From positions 62,001-126,000 of the forward strand of contig LDWW01000003.1 in the NCBI GenBank assembly GCA_001045525.1: 64,000 nt of DNA, read 5' to 3'. The position numbers and the translations under genes are program-made. The stretch comes from Chitinispirillum alkaliphilum (GTDB lineage Bacteria > Fibrobacterota > Chitinivibrionia > Chitinivibrionales > Chitinispirillaceae). The notes beneath the pieces were generated by a model. That model saw only the letters and a program-made list of their open reading frames with translations, was not told the origin of the DNA and searched no databases. Shown piece after piece: positions 43,824 to 53,587 of this stretch. The stretch's first letter is position 1. Every line of letters starts with the position of its first letter.

Positions 43824-46800
43824 ATGAATTTACCGGGAATGAGTGTGCGACGTCCCCTTGCTGTAACAATGATTGTACTTGCATTTACCATGTTTGGGAT
43901 AGTATCCTGGAGTAAACTTCCGCTTGACAGCCTCCCTGATATGGAACTTCCATTTATAACTGTTCAGCTGATATACCCAGGTGCAGGTCCTGAGGAGATT
44001 GAAGCTTCTGTTATTGGGCCAATCGAGGATCAGGTGAATGTGATAGCGGGTATAAAAAACATAACCGCCTATTGTATGGAAAATGGCGGGTTTATGCTTT
44101 TGGAGTTTCTGGATCATATAGATCCTGATATCGCGTCGATCGAAGTTAAGGACAGAATCGATCAGATTATGGGTGATCTTCCCTCAGATCTTAGGAACCC
44201 TGTGATATCCAAATTCAATCCCAATGACAGGCCCGTATTTACTTTGGCTGTAAGAGGGGATATGGATCCTGCAGAACTTAGGAAATATGTTGATGATCAT
44301 CTTAAAGATGAATTTAGCAGAATCCCCGGAGTGGCAAACGTAGACGTTATAGGAGGAAGAGAAAGAGAGATTCATGTGAATCTCGATAAGCAAGCCCTGG
44401 CAGCGCATGGTTTGTCAATTTTCCAGATTATTCCATTTCTTCAAAGTCAGAATGTAACGATACCGGGCGGTTTTATATCAGACCAAAACAAGGAATATAC
44501 TGTAAAGCTCGATGGTGAGTTTACTTCTCTGGATCAGATAAAAAGTCTCAAAATCCCTGTTTACAAGGATTTCGGTTCTGCTCAGGCAAGCTATCAGGTG
44601 GTGCTTGGAGAGGAGTTGGCTGAGATCAGGGATGGTTACAAAGATGTGCGTAATATGGCTCGTTTCAACGGACAGGAATGTGTACAGATATTGATAAATA
44701 AGTCAAGTGATGCAAATATTGTGGAAACCGTTGAGCAGATACAAATTTATGTAGAACAGCTGGAAAAAAATCTTCCGGATGGTATATACATGGATGTGGT
44801 TCAGAGTCGCGCCACATTTATTGAGAATACTATCAGGGATACTTACGCCAATATTGTCATGGGTATCATTCTTACTTCTCTTATTCTTCTGGTATTTTTA
44901 GGGGATCTGCGTCTGACGCTGATTGCTGCGGTTACAATTCCAATCTCAATTATTACAACTATGATTGGGCTTGAGGTGTTCGGTATCTCACTGAATATTG
45001 TTACGATGATGTCGCTGACTGCTTCTGTTGGGATTCTTGTAACAAACGCAATTATTGTGATTGAAAACATAGTTCGTCACAAAGAGTTTGGGGTAGAAAC
45101 AGATCACGCCGCAGAAGTTGGTACAAATGAGATTATGACAGCGGTACTTGCTTCAACCTTAACTAATCTCGCTGTTTTCATTCCGATCGCTTCTACAACG
45201 GGTATTACTGAAAGTGTGTTTAAAACTCTTGGGTTGACTGTTGTTTTCGCTTCAGTCTCATCGCTTTTACTCTCATTCACTCTTGTACCGTTGATGGCTT
45301 CAAAGCTGCTCAGAAAGGGACGTGAACAAAAGCGTGAGAGGGTGTTTAATCGTGCGTTTTATTATCTGGAAAAAAACTATGTGTATCTGTTAAACAGAAT
45401 CCTAAAAAAAAGAGTGCTCAAAGCTCTGCTGGTAGGTGGCACTGTGTCATTATTTCTCTTTTCGGTAGTTGTAATACTGCCATCACTGGGAAGAGAATTT
45501 ATGCCTGCAATGGATAATGGATTTTTCCAGGTCGACATTAAACTGCCCCCCGGCACACCGTTACCTGTTACCGAACAGGTGGTGGAAGAGGTAGAAAGAA
45601 GACTGATGGAAACACCACATCTTGTGGCTGTGTCCTCTGTTCTCGGAGGACAAAATATTGAAACAGGTGTACAGTATGCCACTGTTCAGGTTGAAGTCAC
45701 CCCCGAGACAGAACGTGATGTTTCTGTGATTGACATTGTTACTTTTATGCGACCACGTTTTGCCGATATACCTGATGCGCATATTGTCCTTGATCCCCGT
45801 CCCGACAGGATAAGTAAAGGGGATATCACTATTGAACTTAGTTCCGATAATCTCGACTCGCTGCTTGCATACAAAGAGAGCACCATAGAACTGCTCAGAA
45901 ATATCGGTACTCTTACCGATATTAACAGTTCATGGAGAGGAACAAAACCAGAAATTCTCATTACACCTGACCGCAACAAAATTGAACACTTTGGTCTTTC
46001 GCCCAATATTGCGCAATCTGCAACGGTTCAGATGATCGGAGGTATGCTTCGTTTCAACATAACTGGGGATGATAATGCGATATTCCGGGAAAATGGTCAG
46101 GAATATCCAATAAGAGTGCGTCTGGATGAGAAACACAGAAAAACTCCTCAGGACATTGCATCGTTTCTTGTGCCCACTCCAAGGGGAATGGTTCAGTTGA
46201 ATGAGATAGCTGAGGTTCGTGAAGTGCCATCCATTTCGGCTCTCACACGTAAAAACCGGATGCTTATGGTGGATGTTTCCTGTAACATAACCGAGGGGAC
46301 AACCGGAAAAATGATCGGAGAAATCGATCACTTATTAAGTCAGGCTCATATACCTGATGGGTGCAGTTATCACTTCGGAGGAAACGAAGATCTCAGACAG
46401 GAAACAAATGATCAGCTGACATTTGCTGCAATTCTGGCTGTTGCGCTTACTCTTATGTTGCTTGTCGCCATACTGGAATCTTTTTCCCGCGGTTTGGTGA
46501 TATTTCTGACTATTCCGATGGGTTTGATAGGGGTAATCTGGTTTCTTTTCATTACCGGTAACACCCTTTCGATTATCTCCAGTATTTCAGTTATCATGTT
46601 GATCGGGATCGTGGTAAACAATGCAATCATCCTGATTGACTATGCTCAAAGAGAGAGTGGAAAGCGGAAAATCTCACCCAGAACAGCTATTCTTGGTGCT
46701 GCGAGAACAAAGCTAAAAGCTATTCTCATGGCAAACCTGGCAATTATTGCCTCAATGATACCAATTGCGCTTGGTATAGGGTCTGGGGGTAGTTTCAGGG

Positions 46801-46913
46801 CACCTTTTGCAATAACTGCAATCGGTGGTGTTATTGTTTCTACTGCACTTACTCTCTTTGTAATCCCTGTACTGTATGTGTGGACAGCTTCGAAGTCCAA
46901 AAAGAGTAAGTGA
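43824..46913 (+). CDS. HAE1-type RND efflux transporter
   Basis: 1029 residues, the full AcrB-like length. Features: VRRPLAVTMIVLAFTMFGIV (TM1), DSLPDMELPFITVQLIYPGAGPEE, porter domains, TM4 motif VGILVTNAIIVIENIVRH (GI..DN-like region; note Asn in place of one family Asp), SLGREFMPAMDNGFFQVDIKLPPG, and GIVVNNAIILIDYA near TM10. It pumps drugs, bile-type or lipophilic compounds out using the proton gradient. AGGGAGGAG precedes the ATG. A terminator follows. Confidence 0.94.
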   Translation: MNLPGMSVRRPLAVTMIVLAFTMFGIVSWSKLPLDSLPDMELPFITVQLIYPGAGPEEIEASVIGPIEDQVNVIAGIKNITAYCMENGGFMLLEFLDHIDPDIASIEVKDRIDQIMGDLPSDLRNPVISKFNPNDRPVFTLAVRGDMDPAELRKYVDDHLKDEFSRIPGVANVDVIGGREREIHVNLDKQALAAHGLSIFQIIPFLQSQNVTIPGGFISDQNKEYTVKLDGEFTSLDQIKSLKIPVYKDFGSAQASYQVVLGEELAEIRDGYKDVRNMARFNGQECVQILINKSSDANIVETVEQIQIYVEQLEKNLPDGIYMDVVQSRATFIENTIRDTYANIVMGIILTSLILLVFLGDLRLTLIAAVTIPISIITTMIGLEVFGISLNIVTMMSLTASVGILVTNAIIVIENIVRHKEFGVETDHAAEVGTNEIMTAVLASTLTNLAVFIPIASTTGITESVFKTLGLTVVFASVSSLLLSFTLVPLMASKLLRKGREQKRERVFNRAFYYLEKNYVYLLNRILKKRVLKALLVGGTVSLFLFSVVVILPSLGREFMPAMDNGFFQVDIKLPPGTPLPVTEQVVEEVERRLMETPHLVAVSSVLGGQNIETGVQYATVQVEVTPETERDVSVIDIVTFMRPRFADIPDAHIVLDPRPDRISKGDITIELSSDNLDSLLAYKESTIELLRNIGTLTDINSSWRGTKPEILITPDRNKIEHFGLSPNIAQSATVQMIGGMLRFNITGDDNAIFRENGQEYPIRVRLDEKHRKTPQDIASFLVPTPRGMVQLNEIAEVREVPSISALTRKNRMLMVDVSCNITEGTTGKMIGEIDHLLSQAHIPDGCSYHFGGNEDLRQETNDQLTFAAILAVALTLMLLVAILESFSRGLVIFLTIPMGLIGVIWFLFITGNTLSIISSISVIMLIGIVVNNAIILIDYAQRESGKRKISPRTAILGAARTKLKAILMANLAIIASMIPIALGIGSGGSFRAPFAITAIGGVIVSTALTLFVIPVLYVWTASKSKKSK

Positions 46914-46921
46914 ATGTAGGG

Positions 46922-46955
46922 GAGAGTGCTGAAGATGCAGCGCTCTCTCTTTTTC
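46922..46955 (+). terminator. rho-independent terminator after the RND pump gene
   Basis: GAGAGTGCTG (46922-46931) and CAGCGCTCTC (46938-46947) pair with one G-U, six-base loop, then TCTTTTT. It ends the efflux operon before the tetR gene, so tetR probably has its own promoter. Confidence 0.85.
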
Positions 46956-47123
46956 AAAAACGGTCAACTTGCAGTCGCATATACCCGTGCAGAGTTTTGT
47001 AATGTAAACAATTGATGTGTTTATATGAATACCTTCCCTTGCGCTCTTCTTTGCTTTTTTTTATAATAGGTAATCAATATCTTTCACTATCAGTTTGTTT
47101 TGGGTATACCTAAAGGAGAGTGT

Positions 47124-47789
47124 ATGGAGCGCAGGCGCAAAGAGCGTATATCTAAGATTCGTGATATCAAAAACAATCTAATTCTTGATGCTGCGCTTAC
47201 GGTGTTTTCCGCAAAAGGATTTCATTCAACCCGTCTTGACGATATAGCCAAAGAAGCCGGGTTTTCCAAAGCTGCTCTGTACAACTACTATAAAGACAAG
47301 GAAAATATATTCTTTGCGTTGGCACTGCGGGAGTTTGAAAAAACAGGAGAATGCTTTGTTGAGGATCCATCCTGCTCCATCTCCCAAACTAATGATTTTA
47401 CTACAAATCTCAACAACTATATAAAATCAATACTTCAGACATTCCACTCCAACTTCACTTTTTTGCTAACCCTTGATGAAATGCAGTTCTACTCTGTTTT
47501 CAATATCCAGGAGAATGGTTCCCCGCTTGATGAAATAAAACGGGATCTTTTTAGTGAGAGGAAGAGATTAAGAGAGTATATAATCAATTCTGTTAACTGG
47601 GCAAAAGAGAGTTCTGAAATAGACTCGCCCCTATCTACGGATCGAATTGTATCCTGTATCGAGGGGCTTCTCTTTGGTGTATTCAGGGAATGGCGCCGCA
47701 AACAGCAGGCAGAAAGTATTGATCAGACAACCGAGGATCTTACCAGATTTATACGCCATGGCTGCCAAATCAGGGGACAGGGAAATTAA
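47124..47789 (+). CDS. TetR-family transcriptional regulator
   Basis: 221 residues from ATG 47124, which has GGAG about 7 bases before. N-terminal HTH: NNLILDAALTVFSAKGFHST, RLDDIAKEAGFSKAALYNYY and KDKENIFFALALREFEKTGE; a helical ligand domain follows. Its place just after the tolC/adaptor/RND genes makes it their likely repressor, released by a pump substrate. Confidence 0.92.
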   Translation: MERRRKERISKIRDIKNNLILDAALTVFSAKGFHSTRLDDIAKEAGFSKAALYNYYKDKENIFFALALREFEKTGECFVEDPSCSISQTNDFTTNLNNYIKSILQTFHSNFTFLLTLDEMQFYSVFNIQENGSPLDEIKRDLFSERKRLREYIINSVNWAKESSEIDSPLSTDRIVSCIEGLLFGVFREWRRKQQAESIDQTTEDLTRFIRHGCQIRGQGN

Positions 47790-49065: not shown

Positions 49066-50721
49066 ATGAACAGAGCAGTTTCTTCTCTTCAAGCTGTGCG
49101 TAGTGCTTACAAACCAAAGCTGCCCGAAGTTTTCGCCAAATATGGAAGTAAAGTAAAAGCTTCTACCGGTGAATCAACCACATCAATTTCAGATCAGGAT
49201 CAGATCAAGGCGTTGTTTCCAAACACCTACGGTCTTCCTTTGGTGACCTTTGAAGCTCCTTTAGAATCTGAGCCCGCTCCGTTAAAAGCGGGTGTGATAC
49301 TCTCTGGCGGACAGGCACCAGGAGGACACAATGTGATTGCCGGTATTTATGACGGGCTTAAAAATATAAATGACAAAAGTGAACTCTATGGCTTCCTCGG
49401 TGGGCCAAGCGGACTTACTGACAATGAATACATCCTGTTCACAGATGAAAAAATCGATGAGTACAGAAACACCGGCGGTTTCGATATAATCGGATCCGGT
49501 CGTACAAAACTTGAAACAGAAGAACAGTTTGATCAGGTTATTAACAACTGCAAAAAACTGGGTATAACTGCACTGGTAGTTATCGGTGGCGATGACTCAA
49601 ATACAAACGCATGTATGCTTGCAGAGTACTGCTTGAAGAAAAACAGCGGCATTCAGGTTATCGGGTGTCCAAAAACAATTGATGGGGACCTGAAAAACCA
49701 GTGGATTGAAACTTCATTTGGCTTTGACACTGCCACCAAGGTGTATGCAGAACTGATTGGAAATATCCAGCGTGATGCAAATTCCGCCAAAAAATACTGG
49801 CATTTTATAAAACTCATGGGACGCAGTGCCTCTCATATAGCTCTTGAATGTGCGCTTAAAACCCGCCCCAATATCACACTGATCTCTGAGGAGATACTTG
49901 AAAAGAAAAAGACCCTTAAAGAGGTGGTGGTTGATATAGCAGAAGTGGTAAGGAAGCGCTCTGATGCAGGGAAAAATTTCGGTGTGGTGCTTATACCTGA
50001 AGGACTCATTGAATTTATTCCTGAAATGAAAAAGCTCATAGCGGAACTAAATGATCTGCTGGCTGCAAATGAGGAGTATTTTGAAACGCTCCCAGACGTA
50101 GACAAATTTCAGTACGTCAACAGTAAGCTGGCTGCCGATACTTCATATGCTTTTTCAAGTCTGCCCCGCTCTATTCAGTACCAGCTTTTAGCTGACCGTG
50201 ATCCGCATGGAAATGTACAGGTTTCACGTATCGAGACAGAGAAACTTCTTATCGATATGGTTGAAAACACTTTAAGTGAGTGGAAGTCCAAAGGGGAGTT
50301 CAAGGGCAAATTCAATGCTCTCAATCACTTCTTTGGTTACGAGGGGCGTTGTGCTGCGCCATCCAATTTCGATGCTGATTACTGTTACAGTCTTGGTTAC
50401 AGTGCCTCTGCTCTTGTCAATGCAGGTAAATCAGGATACCTTTCATCTGTACGCAACCTGACTCAGCCGGTCGAGAAATGGATTGCAGGAGGAATTCCTC
50501 TGACAATGATGATGAATCTTGAGCGTCGTCATGGAAAAGATAAGCCTGTTATAAAAAAAGCCCTTGTTGAGCTTGACGGTAAGCCTTATCTCACTTTGGT
50601 TGAGAACAGGGAAAAATGGGCAACACAAGATAGTTACCTCTATCCGGGGCCGATTCAGTACTTTGGACCAGGTGAAGTGTGTGACATCACTACTGAGACT
50701 ATCAAGCTTGAAAGAAGCTAA
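49066..50721 (+). CDS. pyrophosphate-dependent 6-phosphofructokinase (long type)
   Basis: 551 residues, as for the long PPi-PFK group. Motifs: GVILSGGQAPGGHNVIAG, VVIGGDDSNTNACMLAEY (GGDD, the Asp that favours PPi over ATP), PKTIDGDLKNQW (TIDGD catalytic loop with the Lys of PPi enzymes), FIKLMGRSASHIALECAL, and PEGLIEFIPE. It makes fructose-1,6-bisphosphate reversibly and saves ATP. AAAGGA lies about 9 bases upstream of the ATG; a strong terminator follows. Confidence 0.94.
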   Translation: MNRAVSSLQAVRSAYKPKLPEVFAKYGSKVKASTGESTTSISDQDQIKALFPNTYGLPLVTFEAPLESEPAPLKAGVILSGGQAPGGHNVIAGIYDGLKNINDKSELYGFLGGPSGLTDNEYILFTDEKIDEYRNTGGFDIIGSGRTKLETEEQFDQVINNCKKLGITALVVIGGDDSNTNACMLAEYCLKKNSGIQVIGCPKTIDGDLKNQWIETSFGFDTATKVYAELIGNIQRDANSAKKYWHFIKLMGRSASHIALECALKTRPNITLISEEILEKKKTLKEVVVDIAEVVRKRSDAGKNFGVVLIPEGLIEFIPEMKKLIAELNDLLAANEEYFETLPDVDKFQYVNSKLAADTSYAFSSLPRSIQYQLLADRDPHGNVQVSRIETEKLLIDMVENTLSEWKSKGEFKGKFNALNHFFGYEGRCAAPSNFDADYCYSLGYSASALVNAGKSGYLSSVRNLTQPVEKWIAGGIPLTMMMNLERRHGKDKPVIKKALVELDGKPYLTLVENREKWATQDSYLYPGPIQYFGPGEVCDITTETIKLERS

Positions 50722-51238: not shown

Positions 51239-52177
51239 TTAGGTGTTCAGATCATCGGTTGTTGGGAGTGAGTCGATACCACCGCCTTTTAGACCTTTGA
51301 ATAGTGCAACACCGTTTGCAAACTCTGCAGCGGTGAAGGGGTCGAAACCACGTGCGATACAATGGAGAAAGCCGCCGTTGAAAGCACTGCCGATCAGGGT
51401 GGTGTTCTTAAGTGATTCGGTGGGTGTTTGATGCGGGAATTCTTCAATTTTCCCATCATACCCTACAAGACAGCCCCCGGCCCCGGTTTTAACCACTACA
51501 ATGTGTACTCCTCTGTCCCATAGAAATCCGATTACATCAAGGGGGCGCTCATATCCAAAGAGTGCTTTTGTTTCATCGGGAGCTGAGGTGAAGATTACAT
51601 CGAGCAGGGGAAGAACACCCCACAGGCACTCCTTTGCATCATCCAGACTCCATCTCTGGAGTCGCAGGTTTGGATCGTAGGCTACCATTATGTCATTGCT
51701 GTGTGCAAAGTGGAATGCCTTGAAAATTGTGTGTCTGGTTGATTTTGAAACAGACTGGAGTTCGCTTGAAGCGTAGATGATTTTGCAGTTTTCAATTAGA
51801 TCATCATAGATCATTGATGGGGCGATTTGTTTGGAAGAGCTTCCCGGATGGTGAACAAGATACTCCCTTACATCCGGATACCTTGAGGATGTAAAATAGA
51901 TTCCGTTATATCCCTGGCTTGTAACCACATGGTCTATGTTTATTCCCTGAGAGAGGAGGCGTTCCCGTATAAAGGAGTGGAAAGAATCTCTGGCCACAGA
52001 GGAGACCAGTTGGACTCCTGAGCCAAGGCGTGCAGCAGTAGCGGCTACGAGAAGATCAGCGCCACCGATATCTTTTTCAAATTTCTCATTATGTATAATA
52101 TCTCCCTCACAGCGAAACTCCACAAAGCTTTCGCCTATGACAAGAAGATCATAATCCCTGATATGAATTGGTTTCAT
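51239..52177 (-). CDS. PfkB-family sugar kinase homologue lacking the catalytic Asp
   Basis: 312 residues of the ribokinase/PfkB family, closest in feel to 2-keto-3-deoxygluconate kinases: LLVIGESFVEF, GGADLLVAATAARLG, VAYDPNLRLQRW, VVKTGAGGCLVGY. The anion-hole motif GAGD at the active site is replaced by LIGS (261-264) in TTLIGSAFNGGF, so the catalytic Asp is Ser264 (codon 51386-51388). Reading frame and fold motifs are otherwise intact. The protein may bind sugar or nucleotide without kinase activity, act as a regulator, or use another base. pdxB and gnd lie divergently next door. Confidence 0.85.
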   Translation of the reverse strand: MKPIHIRDYDLLVIGESFVEFRCEGDIIHNEKFEKDIGGADLLVAATAARLGSGVQLVSSVARDSFHSFIRERLLSQGINIDHVVTSQGYNGIYFTSSRYPDVREYLVHHPGSSSKQIAPSMIYDDLIENCKIIYASSELQSVSKSTRHTIFKAFHFAHSNDIMVAYDPNLRLQRWSLDDAKECLWGVLPLLDVIFTSAPDETKALFGYERPLDVIGFLWDRGVHIVVVKTGAGGCLVGYDGKIEEFPHQTPTESLKNTTLIGSAFNGGFLHCIARGFDPFTAAEFANGVALFKGLKGGGIDSLPTTDDLNT

Positions 52178-52411: not shown

Positions 52412-53587
52412 ATGAACATAATAGCAGATCAGAATATTCTTTTTGCCGCCGAATCATTTGCTGAGCTTGGTGAAGTGACGGTGCTACCCAGCTACAAAAT
52501 TAATCGTGAAGAGTTGAAGAAGGCAGATATCGCACTGGTGAGGTCGGTTACTCCTGTGGGTAAAGAGTTGCTGGAAGATACACCGGTACGTTTTGTTGCC
52601 AGTGCCACTATCGGCATAGATCATGTGGATCTGGATTATCTCCGTGAAAGAAGTATCGGATTTGCCCATGCTCCAGGTTCCAATGCCGATTCTGTGGCGG
52701 AGTATGTGTTGGCTTCCATTTTGGAAACAACCGGAAAAACTGCTTCAGAGCTTTCGGGACTAAAAATTGCAATTATAGGTGTTGGAAATGTGGGGAGCAA
52801 GGTATGCAGGATTGCTACATCCCTTGGGATGGAATGTTTGCTTTATGATCCACCCAAAAAGCAGTTGACCGGAAGCGGAATCTATCTTCCCTTAGAACAG
52901 GTGCTAAGCGAAGCTGACATTATCACTCTTCATGTGCCGCTTGAAATGTCGGAACCATATTCAACTTATCACATGGTAAATAAAGACTTCATGTCCATGA
53001 TAAAGAATAAACCAATTCTGATCAATACAAGCAGGGGCAAAGTTATAGACGAAAAGGAGTTCCGTCAAAGTCGTGACTGTTTTGGGCCTGTTGTTTTTGA
53101 TGTCTGGGATAATGAACCTTCCATAAACACTGAAACTGTCCGTATGGTTGATATTGCAACTCCCCATATCGCAGGGTATTCCTTTGATGGCAAGGTGAGG
53201 GGGACAGAGATGATTCAAAGTTCTACCTGTGCGTTTTTCTTTCAGAAACAAAACTGGTTTGTGGATAAGGAGCAGATTTCAAATATATGCGAAACACTTG
53301 ACTTGTCTGAGTCGGGTGATCCTGTAACAGATGCTGTGAGAAGTGCTTACCAGATAAAGAAAGATGATGAGCAGTTCAGGGCGATTTTTTCGGTCAGCAA
53401 AGAGATGCAGCACTCATTTTTCGAAGAGTTCAGGAAAAATTACCACAGAAGATACGAGTTCCCTCACTTTTTGACCCTTCTTTCTGAAAAACAGAAAGAG
53501 GAGATGGAGATCCTCTCTCAGCTGCGATTCCCCGCAGAGCTTAAATCCGGGGTGGATGATACTGTTGAATCGGTAAGCAGTACATGA
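52412..53587 (+). CDS. pdxB: 4-phosphoerythronate dehydrogenase
   Basis: 391 residues: MNIIADQNILFAAESFAELG, VRSVTPVGKELLEDTPVRFVA, ATIGIDHVDLDYL, APGSNADSVAEYV, NAD loop IIGVGNVGSKV, and the C-terminal PdxB domain after about 290. The NTSRGKVIDEKEFRQS and PHIAGYSFDGKVRG segments match PdxB rather than SerA. It oxidises 4-phosphoerythronate in the DXP-independent-branch of pyridoxal phosphate synthesis (the E. coli route). Partners SerC/PdxA are not in the window. Confidence 0.93.
   Translation: MNIIADQNILFAAESFAELGEVTVLPSYKINREELKKADIALVRSVTPVGKELLEDTPVRFVASATIGIDHVDLDYLRERSIGFAHAPGSNADSVAEYVLASILETTGKTASELSGLKIAIIGVGNVGSKVCRIATSLGMECLLYDPPKKQLTGSGIYLPLEQVLSEADIITLHVPLEMSEPYSTYHMVNKDFMSMIKNKPILINTSRGKVIDEKEFRQSRDCFGPVVFDVWDNEPSINTETVRMVDIATPHIAGYSFDGKVRGTEMIQSSTCAFFFQKQNWFVDKEQISNICETLDLSESGDPVTDAVRSAYQIKKDDEQFRAIFSVSKEMQHSFFEEFRKNYHRRYEFPHFLTLLSEKQKEEMEILSQLRFPAELKSGVDDTVESVSST

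Follow-up and report, generated by a model that had tools for sequence, protein, structure and literature searches.

A PfkB-family gene without the catalytic aspartate

An open reading frame that starts with ATG and codes for a 312-amino-acid protein of the PfkB family lies on the minus strand of the window, i.e., the whole stretch of 64,000 nucleotides that was analyzed (Table 1). Pfam assigned residues 13-306 to PF00294 (E 1.4e-28, 100.6 bits, curated cut-off 25.8). Where 2-keto-3-deoxygluconate (KDG) kinases have the sequence DxxGAGDAF, the alignment placed the stretch ...NTTLIGSAFNGGFLH..., a second excerpt of which is ...TLIGSAFNGGFLH...; codon 264 is AGT, which reads ACT on the plus strand. 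The earlier note on this DNA had claimed that a serine takes the place of the catalytic aspartate, turning GAGD into LIGS, in a gene with a sound reading frame. The sequence and the alignment with KDG kinases confirmed the substitution, and the frame is open over its whole length. The note had also described the other motifs as sound, which holds only in part. Besides the Asp, GAGD has lost its first G and its A, another residue stands in for the Asn of GGxxxN, and the position of fructokinase Lys201, ahead of the conserved Glu, has changed too.

Table 1. Location of the PfkB-family gene, its active-site motifs, and the divergent neighbor in the window.
Feature	Positions	Strand	Basis
PfkB-family protein, 312 aa, degenerate catalytic motif, pseudokinase candidate	51239..52177	-	ORF, translation, Pfam, AF2
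L261-I262-G263-S264, at the place of the GAGD anion hole and catalytic base	51386..51397	-	sequence, KDG kinase alignment, column counts
Ser264 codon AGT, replacing the catalytic Asp	51386..51388	-	sequence, orthologue column counts
K230-T-G232-A-G-G235, nucleotide-loop glycines; G232 in 36/36	51473..51490	-	column counts
E202, Glu of NxxE-type motif, 36/36	51572..51574	-	column counts
D168-P-N170-L-R172, sugar/divalent-metal motif	51662..51676	-	alignment; VcFRK D172/N174/R176
L43, at the place of the sugar-binding Asn of GGxxxN (KDG kinases, fructokinase)	52049..52051	-	alignment; VcFRK N49
G38-G39, di-glycine hinge, invariant in 34/34 readable orthologues	52061..52066	-	column counts
pdxB-like 2-hydroxyacid dehydrogenase with DUF3410, divergent neighbor	52412..53587	+	commonest neighbor, 16 neighborhoods

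A single loss of the aspartate preceded the diversification of the order

A set of 167 Fibrobacterota genomes was searched for orthologues at E<=1e-20. They were found in 36, all of them within the order to which the window belongs (36/40 genomes of this order versus 0/127 of the other Fibrobacterota). Relatives with names belong to Chitinispirillum, Chitinispirillaceae, and Chitinivibrionales; a Chitinispirillum has been described in culture (PMC4814513). Every one of the order's 20 genomes with completeness >=90% and contamination <=5% carries the gene. Of the four genomes that lack it, three are incomplete assemblies (70-86%). In the fourth, G007, the glycosyltransferase-like gene that is found downstream is cut by a contig edge and the orthologue may sit in an assembly gap. 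A scan of contigs with exact peptide patterns recovered 13 loci of the clade, which come from genomes already in the set (L041-L053) and were counted once, plus one distant Novosphingobium kinase. Viral contigs, scanned with A1 and with two individual KDG kinases, yielded no relatives.

Two of the 36 orthologues (G005 and G018) are truncated at the site by the end of their contig, leaving 34 in which residue 264 can be read. It is Ser in 32, Ala in two, and Asp in none, as the alignment of orthologues proposed in the earlier note to check the conservation of LIGS made clear; orthologues with GAGD, which that note named as grounds for discarding its claim, were not found among the 34. The Ser264 codon is mostly AGY, with TCN in four genomes (G028, G033, G037, and G039). 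In a maximum-likelihood tree of 42 rows, a single branch with support of 100/100 separated the 35 rows of the order from seven outgroup kinases. A truncated orthologue of 220 aa (G030) was left out of the tree and of the codon count, in which 33 rows required four changes of codon class at residue 264, one of them to Ala. The tree requires a single loss of Asp and shows that the catalytic residue disappeared once, prior to the diversification of the order.

The aspartate was present in all 47 PfkB-type proteins inspected outside the clade, including the three others encoded in the window genome. This set (L054, L096, L097, L099-L137 less L098, L165-L167, L171, and L179) contains some biased controls: L165, L166, L167, and L171 were found with patterns that include GAGD, and L135-L137 came from a scan that allowed GD or GS. 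Control L099, of 515 aa, is a more distant member of the superfamily.

The two orthologues with Ala (L084 and L094, genus g17 of family f7) form the most divergent pair, with the motif SYSGAV and a branch length of 3.48 changes per column. The role of the protein may have shifted in this lineage.

The gene is under strong selection. The pN/pS ratios of 10 orthologue pairs ranged from 0.05 to 0.28, although synonymous sites were saturated in several pairs, so the low values are rough. The protein was more conserved than PdxB in 105/105 genome pairs, than Gnd in 25/28, than the ADP-ribosylglycohydrolase described below in 65/66, and than the glycosyltransferase-like protein in 36/36; the pairs in these comparisons are not independent. 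The low pN/pS ratios and a conservation above that of the neighboring proteins are not what a decaying relic would show, and the earlier view that the protein is kept held up, with the gene present in 36/40 genomes of the order. A lone mutation, a sequencing error, or a pseudogene in the window genome was ruled out, its probability being practically nil, by the absence of the aspartate from 34/34 orthologues of many assemblies, by their open frames, and by pN/pS ratios well under 1.

Fold and ancestry

A structural model was predicted with AF2 from 22 sequences (pLDDT 91.8, pTM 0.92); another one, from 11 close sequences, had a pLDDT of 47 and was set aside. The top PDB matches of the model were PfkB kinases, which spanned model residues 9-312. 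The model thus predicts that the full ribokinase-type fold has been kept. The best match was the KDG kinase 2v78 (Z 41.6, rmsd 1.6 Å, 296 residues aligned), in agreement with the results of the sequence searches. The fold is shared almost over its full length with the KdgK proteins of S. solfataricus (2v78), S. tokodaii (2dcn), and T. thermophilus (1v19/1v1b), with Z 40-42 and rmsd 1.6-1.8 Å, as are the DPNLRLxxW motif, the GG hinge, E202, and the glycine loop. However, these enzymes have GAGD where the window protein has LIGS, and their sugar-binding Asn of GGxxxN is replaced here. The nearest sequences outside the clade were plasmid-borne KDG-kinase-like proteins, with 25-28% identity. The score against the NCBIfam KDG/KDGal kinase model NF040938 was 110.7 bits, below its cut-off of 400. 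The ancestor was probably a KDG-kinase-like protein.

KDPG aldolase (PF01081) was found in 10/40 genomes of the order, a search of the window genome with PF01081 found no match, and in G003 the aldolase gene adjoins that of a separate kinase that keeps the Asp (GGGD). The scarcity of the aldolase and the separate kinase of G003 argue that most of the order does not now use the protein for KDG catabolism, and a KDG kinase acting in an Entner-Doudoroff-type branch was rejected for most of its genomes.

The ligand pocket is kept while part of the catalytic apparatus is gone

The active-site residues of the V. cholerae fructokinase (VcFRK), which include N49, D172, N174, and R176 in the part of the literature dealing with this enzyme (PMC6240065), were used as reference, and 17 positions were placed on the window protein by motif anchoring. 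Eight of them fall within the 24 invariant columns among 312 (Fisher p 5.7e-6), namely E16, G39, D168, N170, R172, E202, G232, and G263. Residues D168, N170, and R172 are each present in 36/36 orthologues, and E16, GG, DxNxR, and E202, which belong to the sugar and metal sites, are invariant or almost so. The side chains that hold the sugar and the divalent metal in relatives have thus been kept, and the part of the earlier note that envisaged a sugar-binding protein without kinase activity fits this pocket. Other positions diverged. In orthologues the position of the GGxxxN Asn is occupied by a hydrophobic residue, Tyr, or Phe, and once by Thr; the loss of this Asn may have abolished binding of the ancestral sugar. 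The position of VcFRK Lys201, ahead of E202, is mostly Pro, that of Glu204 is Pro, and the GA of GAGD has become mostly L followed by I, V, or A, so half of the phosphate nest is gone.

Since the residue on which normal kinase chemistry depends has been lost, the function of the protein is probably sensing or scaffolding and not phosphorylation. Binding of a ligand without turnover is plausible, given that the D-to-N substitution in E. coli Pfk-2 is described as abrogating activity and affecting substrate binding only mildly (PMC5405513). Nonetheless, D168, N170, R172, and E202 also handle metal and phosphate, and their conservation fits an active enzyme too. The protein could then still be a kinase that uses another base or none, with Ser264 or another invariant side chain activating the hydroxyl while the metal and Arg172 position the ATP. 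The presence of these four residues and of the glycine-loop G232 in 36/36 orthologues, and the retention of Ser in 32/34 through both codon classes, are consistent with such an enzyme, as is the tolerance of the superfamily to residues other than Asp at this location. The motif of E. coli ThiD is GTGC, which we take to occupy the place of GAGD, with Cys at the position of the base. This Cys is catalytic, and the substrates of the ThiD/HMP kinase branch are different. However, ThiD retains the leading Gly, while in the window protein the GA of the phosphate nest is replaced by L and I/V/A; moreover, Ser gave way to Ala in 2/34 orthologues, and neither the sugar-binding Asn nor the Lys that in fructokinase precedes the equivalent of E202 is present. 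We consider an altered kinase unlikely, though well worth keeping in mind.

Another alternative is that the protein has lost ligand binding altogether and persists as a scaffold or structural subunit. Pseudoenzymes with sugar-kinase folds are known. The plant proteins FLN1 and FLN2 are of the PfkB type, and the portion of PMC5405513 that deals with them reports that no kinase activity was detected; a structural role has been proposed for PEP-associated proteins, among them FLN1, within the large complex of the plastid RNA polymerase (PMC5405513, PMC3409070, PMC4036507). The likeness to the window protein lies in a role other than measured catalysis and is not drawn at the Asp site, and the FLNs differ in being eukaryotic components of the plastid RNA polymerase complex. 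The FLN chains 8w9z and 8xzv matched weakly and over part of the length (E about 3e-4). Conservation of the window protein is high over its entire length, beyond the pocket, which is consistent with a scaffold, but the invariant columns are enriched in pocket residues, which a ligand-free scaffold would not need. A role of this kind is quite improbable.

The gene neighborhood varies around a stable pfkB gene

The earlier note had placed the protein as a regulator of the gnd/pdxB region. Within the 32 neighborhoods compared, in one of which the pfkB gene was missed by the ORF caller, pdxB was found in 16 and gnd in eight; several of them are cut by contig ends. The pfkB gene stays where neither adjoins it. 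Pfam recognized no DNA-binding domain in the protein, PF00294 (residues 13-306 of 312) being the sole domain. A transcription regulator of gnd/pdxB was rejected in view of this absence and of the variable neighborhood, so this part of the proposal did not stand.

Linkage to two other genes was stronger than that to pdxB or gnd. Orthologues of a DraG-type ADP-ribosylglycohydrolase were identified in 14/40 genomes of the order, counting strong matches and not weaker paralogues, and the gene was always located upstream of pfkB on the same strand, within about 510 bases, with a small ORF in between in three genomes. A glycosyltransferase-like gene (PF13524) matched in 16/40 genomes: 13 directly downstream of pfkB, two elsewhere, and one a fragment at a contig edge. 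Many of the junctions between pfkB and these accessory genes overlap by 4 or 1 bases. The order-wide search of 40 genomes found neither gene in the window genome. They are also absent from most other genomes, and a general requirement of pfkB for them was rejected.

The string ADP-ribosylglycohydrolase gene-pfkB-glycosyltransferase-like gene occurs in L068, L070, L072, L076, L077, L081, and others; both accessory genes come and go, and pfkB stays. One ADP-ribosylglycohydrolase orthologue (G017:C108:188-1174) has an in-frame TAG and is possibly a decaying copy or an assembly error. In L065, L067, L069, L077, and L080, pfkB adjoins a conserved cluster on the opposite strand that, as named by eye, codes for a TPR/TonB-like protein, a GGDEF sensor, an NtrC-like regulator, a PAS histidine kinase, a small protein perhaps similar to FlgN, and a TPR protein. 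In the window, a gene for a 551-aa PFK-family protein (PF00365, by its length perhaps PPi-dependent) at 49066-50721 is convergent with pfkB across 517 bases. An efflux-type run at 43824-47789 includes, also as named by eye, a 1029-aa RND-like transporter (43824-46913) and a TetR-like regulator (47100-47789).

The coupled genes raise the possibility that the protein, for which the earlier note had alternatively suggested a new enzyme activity, catalyzes other chemistry, e.g., hydrolysis, isomerization, or reverse phosphate transfer, on the product of the ADP-ribosylglycohydrolase or of the glycosyltransferase-like enzyme. Its slow evolution is typical of enzymes, a LIGS-type motif is conserved where GAGD stood, and the ADP-ribosylglycohydrolase gene is directly upstream in the 14 genomes. 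Against this, pfkB is still there in the majority of genomes, that of the window included, from which the coupled enzymes are absent, and no candidate catalytic set was recognized in the protein. We regard this reading as improbable.

The arrangement has a parallel in E. coli, where yegU, which codes for an ADP-ribosylglycohydrolase, precedes the pfkB gene yegV and overlaps it by 4 bases. YegV, however, keeps GAGD and is barely similar to the window protein. The yegTUV operon is associated with a transporter and the repressor GgaR, a reported ADP-glucose sensor, and its three genes are presented as lacking a clear function in the passages of PMC10819704 that concern them. Ligands of the ADP-sugar or ADP-ribose type are a lead only, as the window genome has neither partner.

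An order-wide pseudokinase as a putative metabolite sensor

On balance, we favor a clade-wide PfkB pseudokinase of KDG-kinase-like descent that binds a ligand and acts as a sensor or adaptor. The ligand would be a small sugar-acid or nucleotide-sugar-like molecule, bound with or without ATP/Mg and left unphosphorylated. Closure of the lid, driven by the ligand as in active relatives, would alter the contact with a partner protein, and through this change the pseudokinase would sense a metabolite or act as an adaptor. Some members of the order may employ as partners the ADP-ribosylglycohydrolase and glycosyltransferase-like proteins, whose genes are translationally coupled to pfkB; these proteins cannot be the general partners since their genes are missing from most genomes. 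A more tentative extension, possible but doubtful, is a core metabolite switch common to the whole order, in which the dead sugar kinase would read the pool of a sugar acid or of ADP-sugar/ADP-ribose by means of an intact pocket, lid closure would control the partners, and the accessory effectors would be specific to lineages.

No description of a bacterial PfkB pseudokinase or pseudoenzyme was found in the literature searched. Although the protein studied here is without the catalytic base and half of its phosphate nest, it is better conserved than the central enzymes encoded next to it. The automatic annotation "sugar kinase" would misstate the function of a PfkB-family protein throughout a whole order and, if metabolite sensing is its true role, the protein would be a bacterial PfkB pseudokinase.
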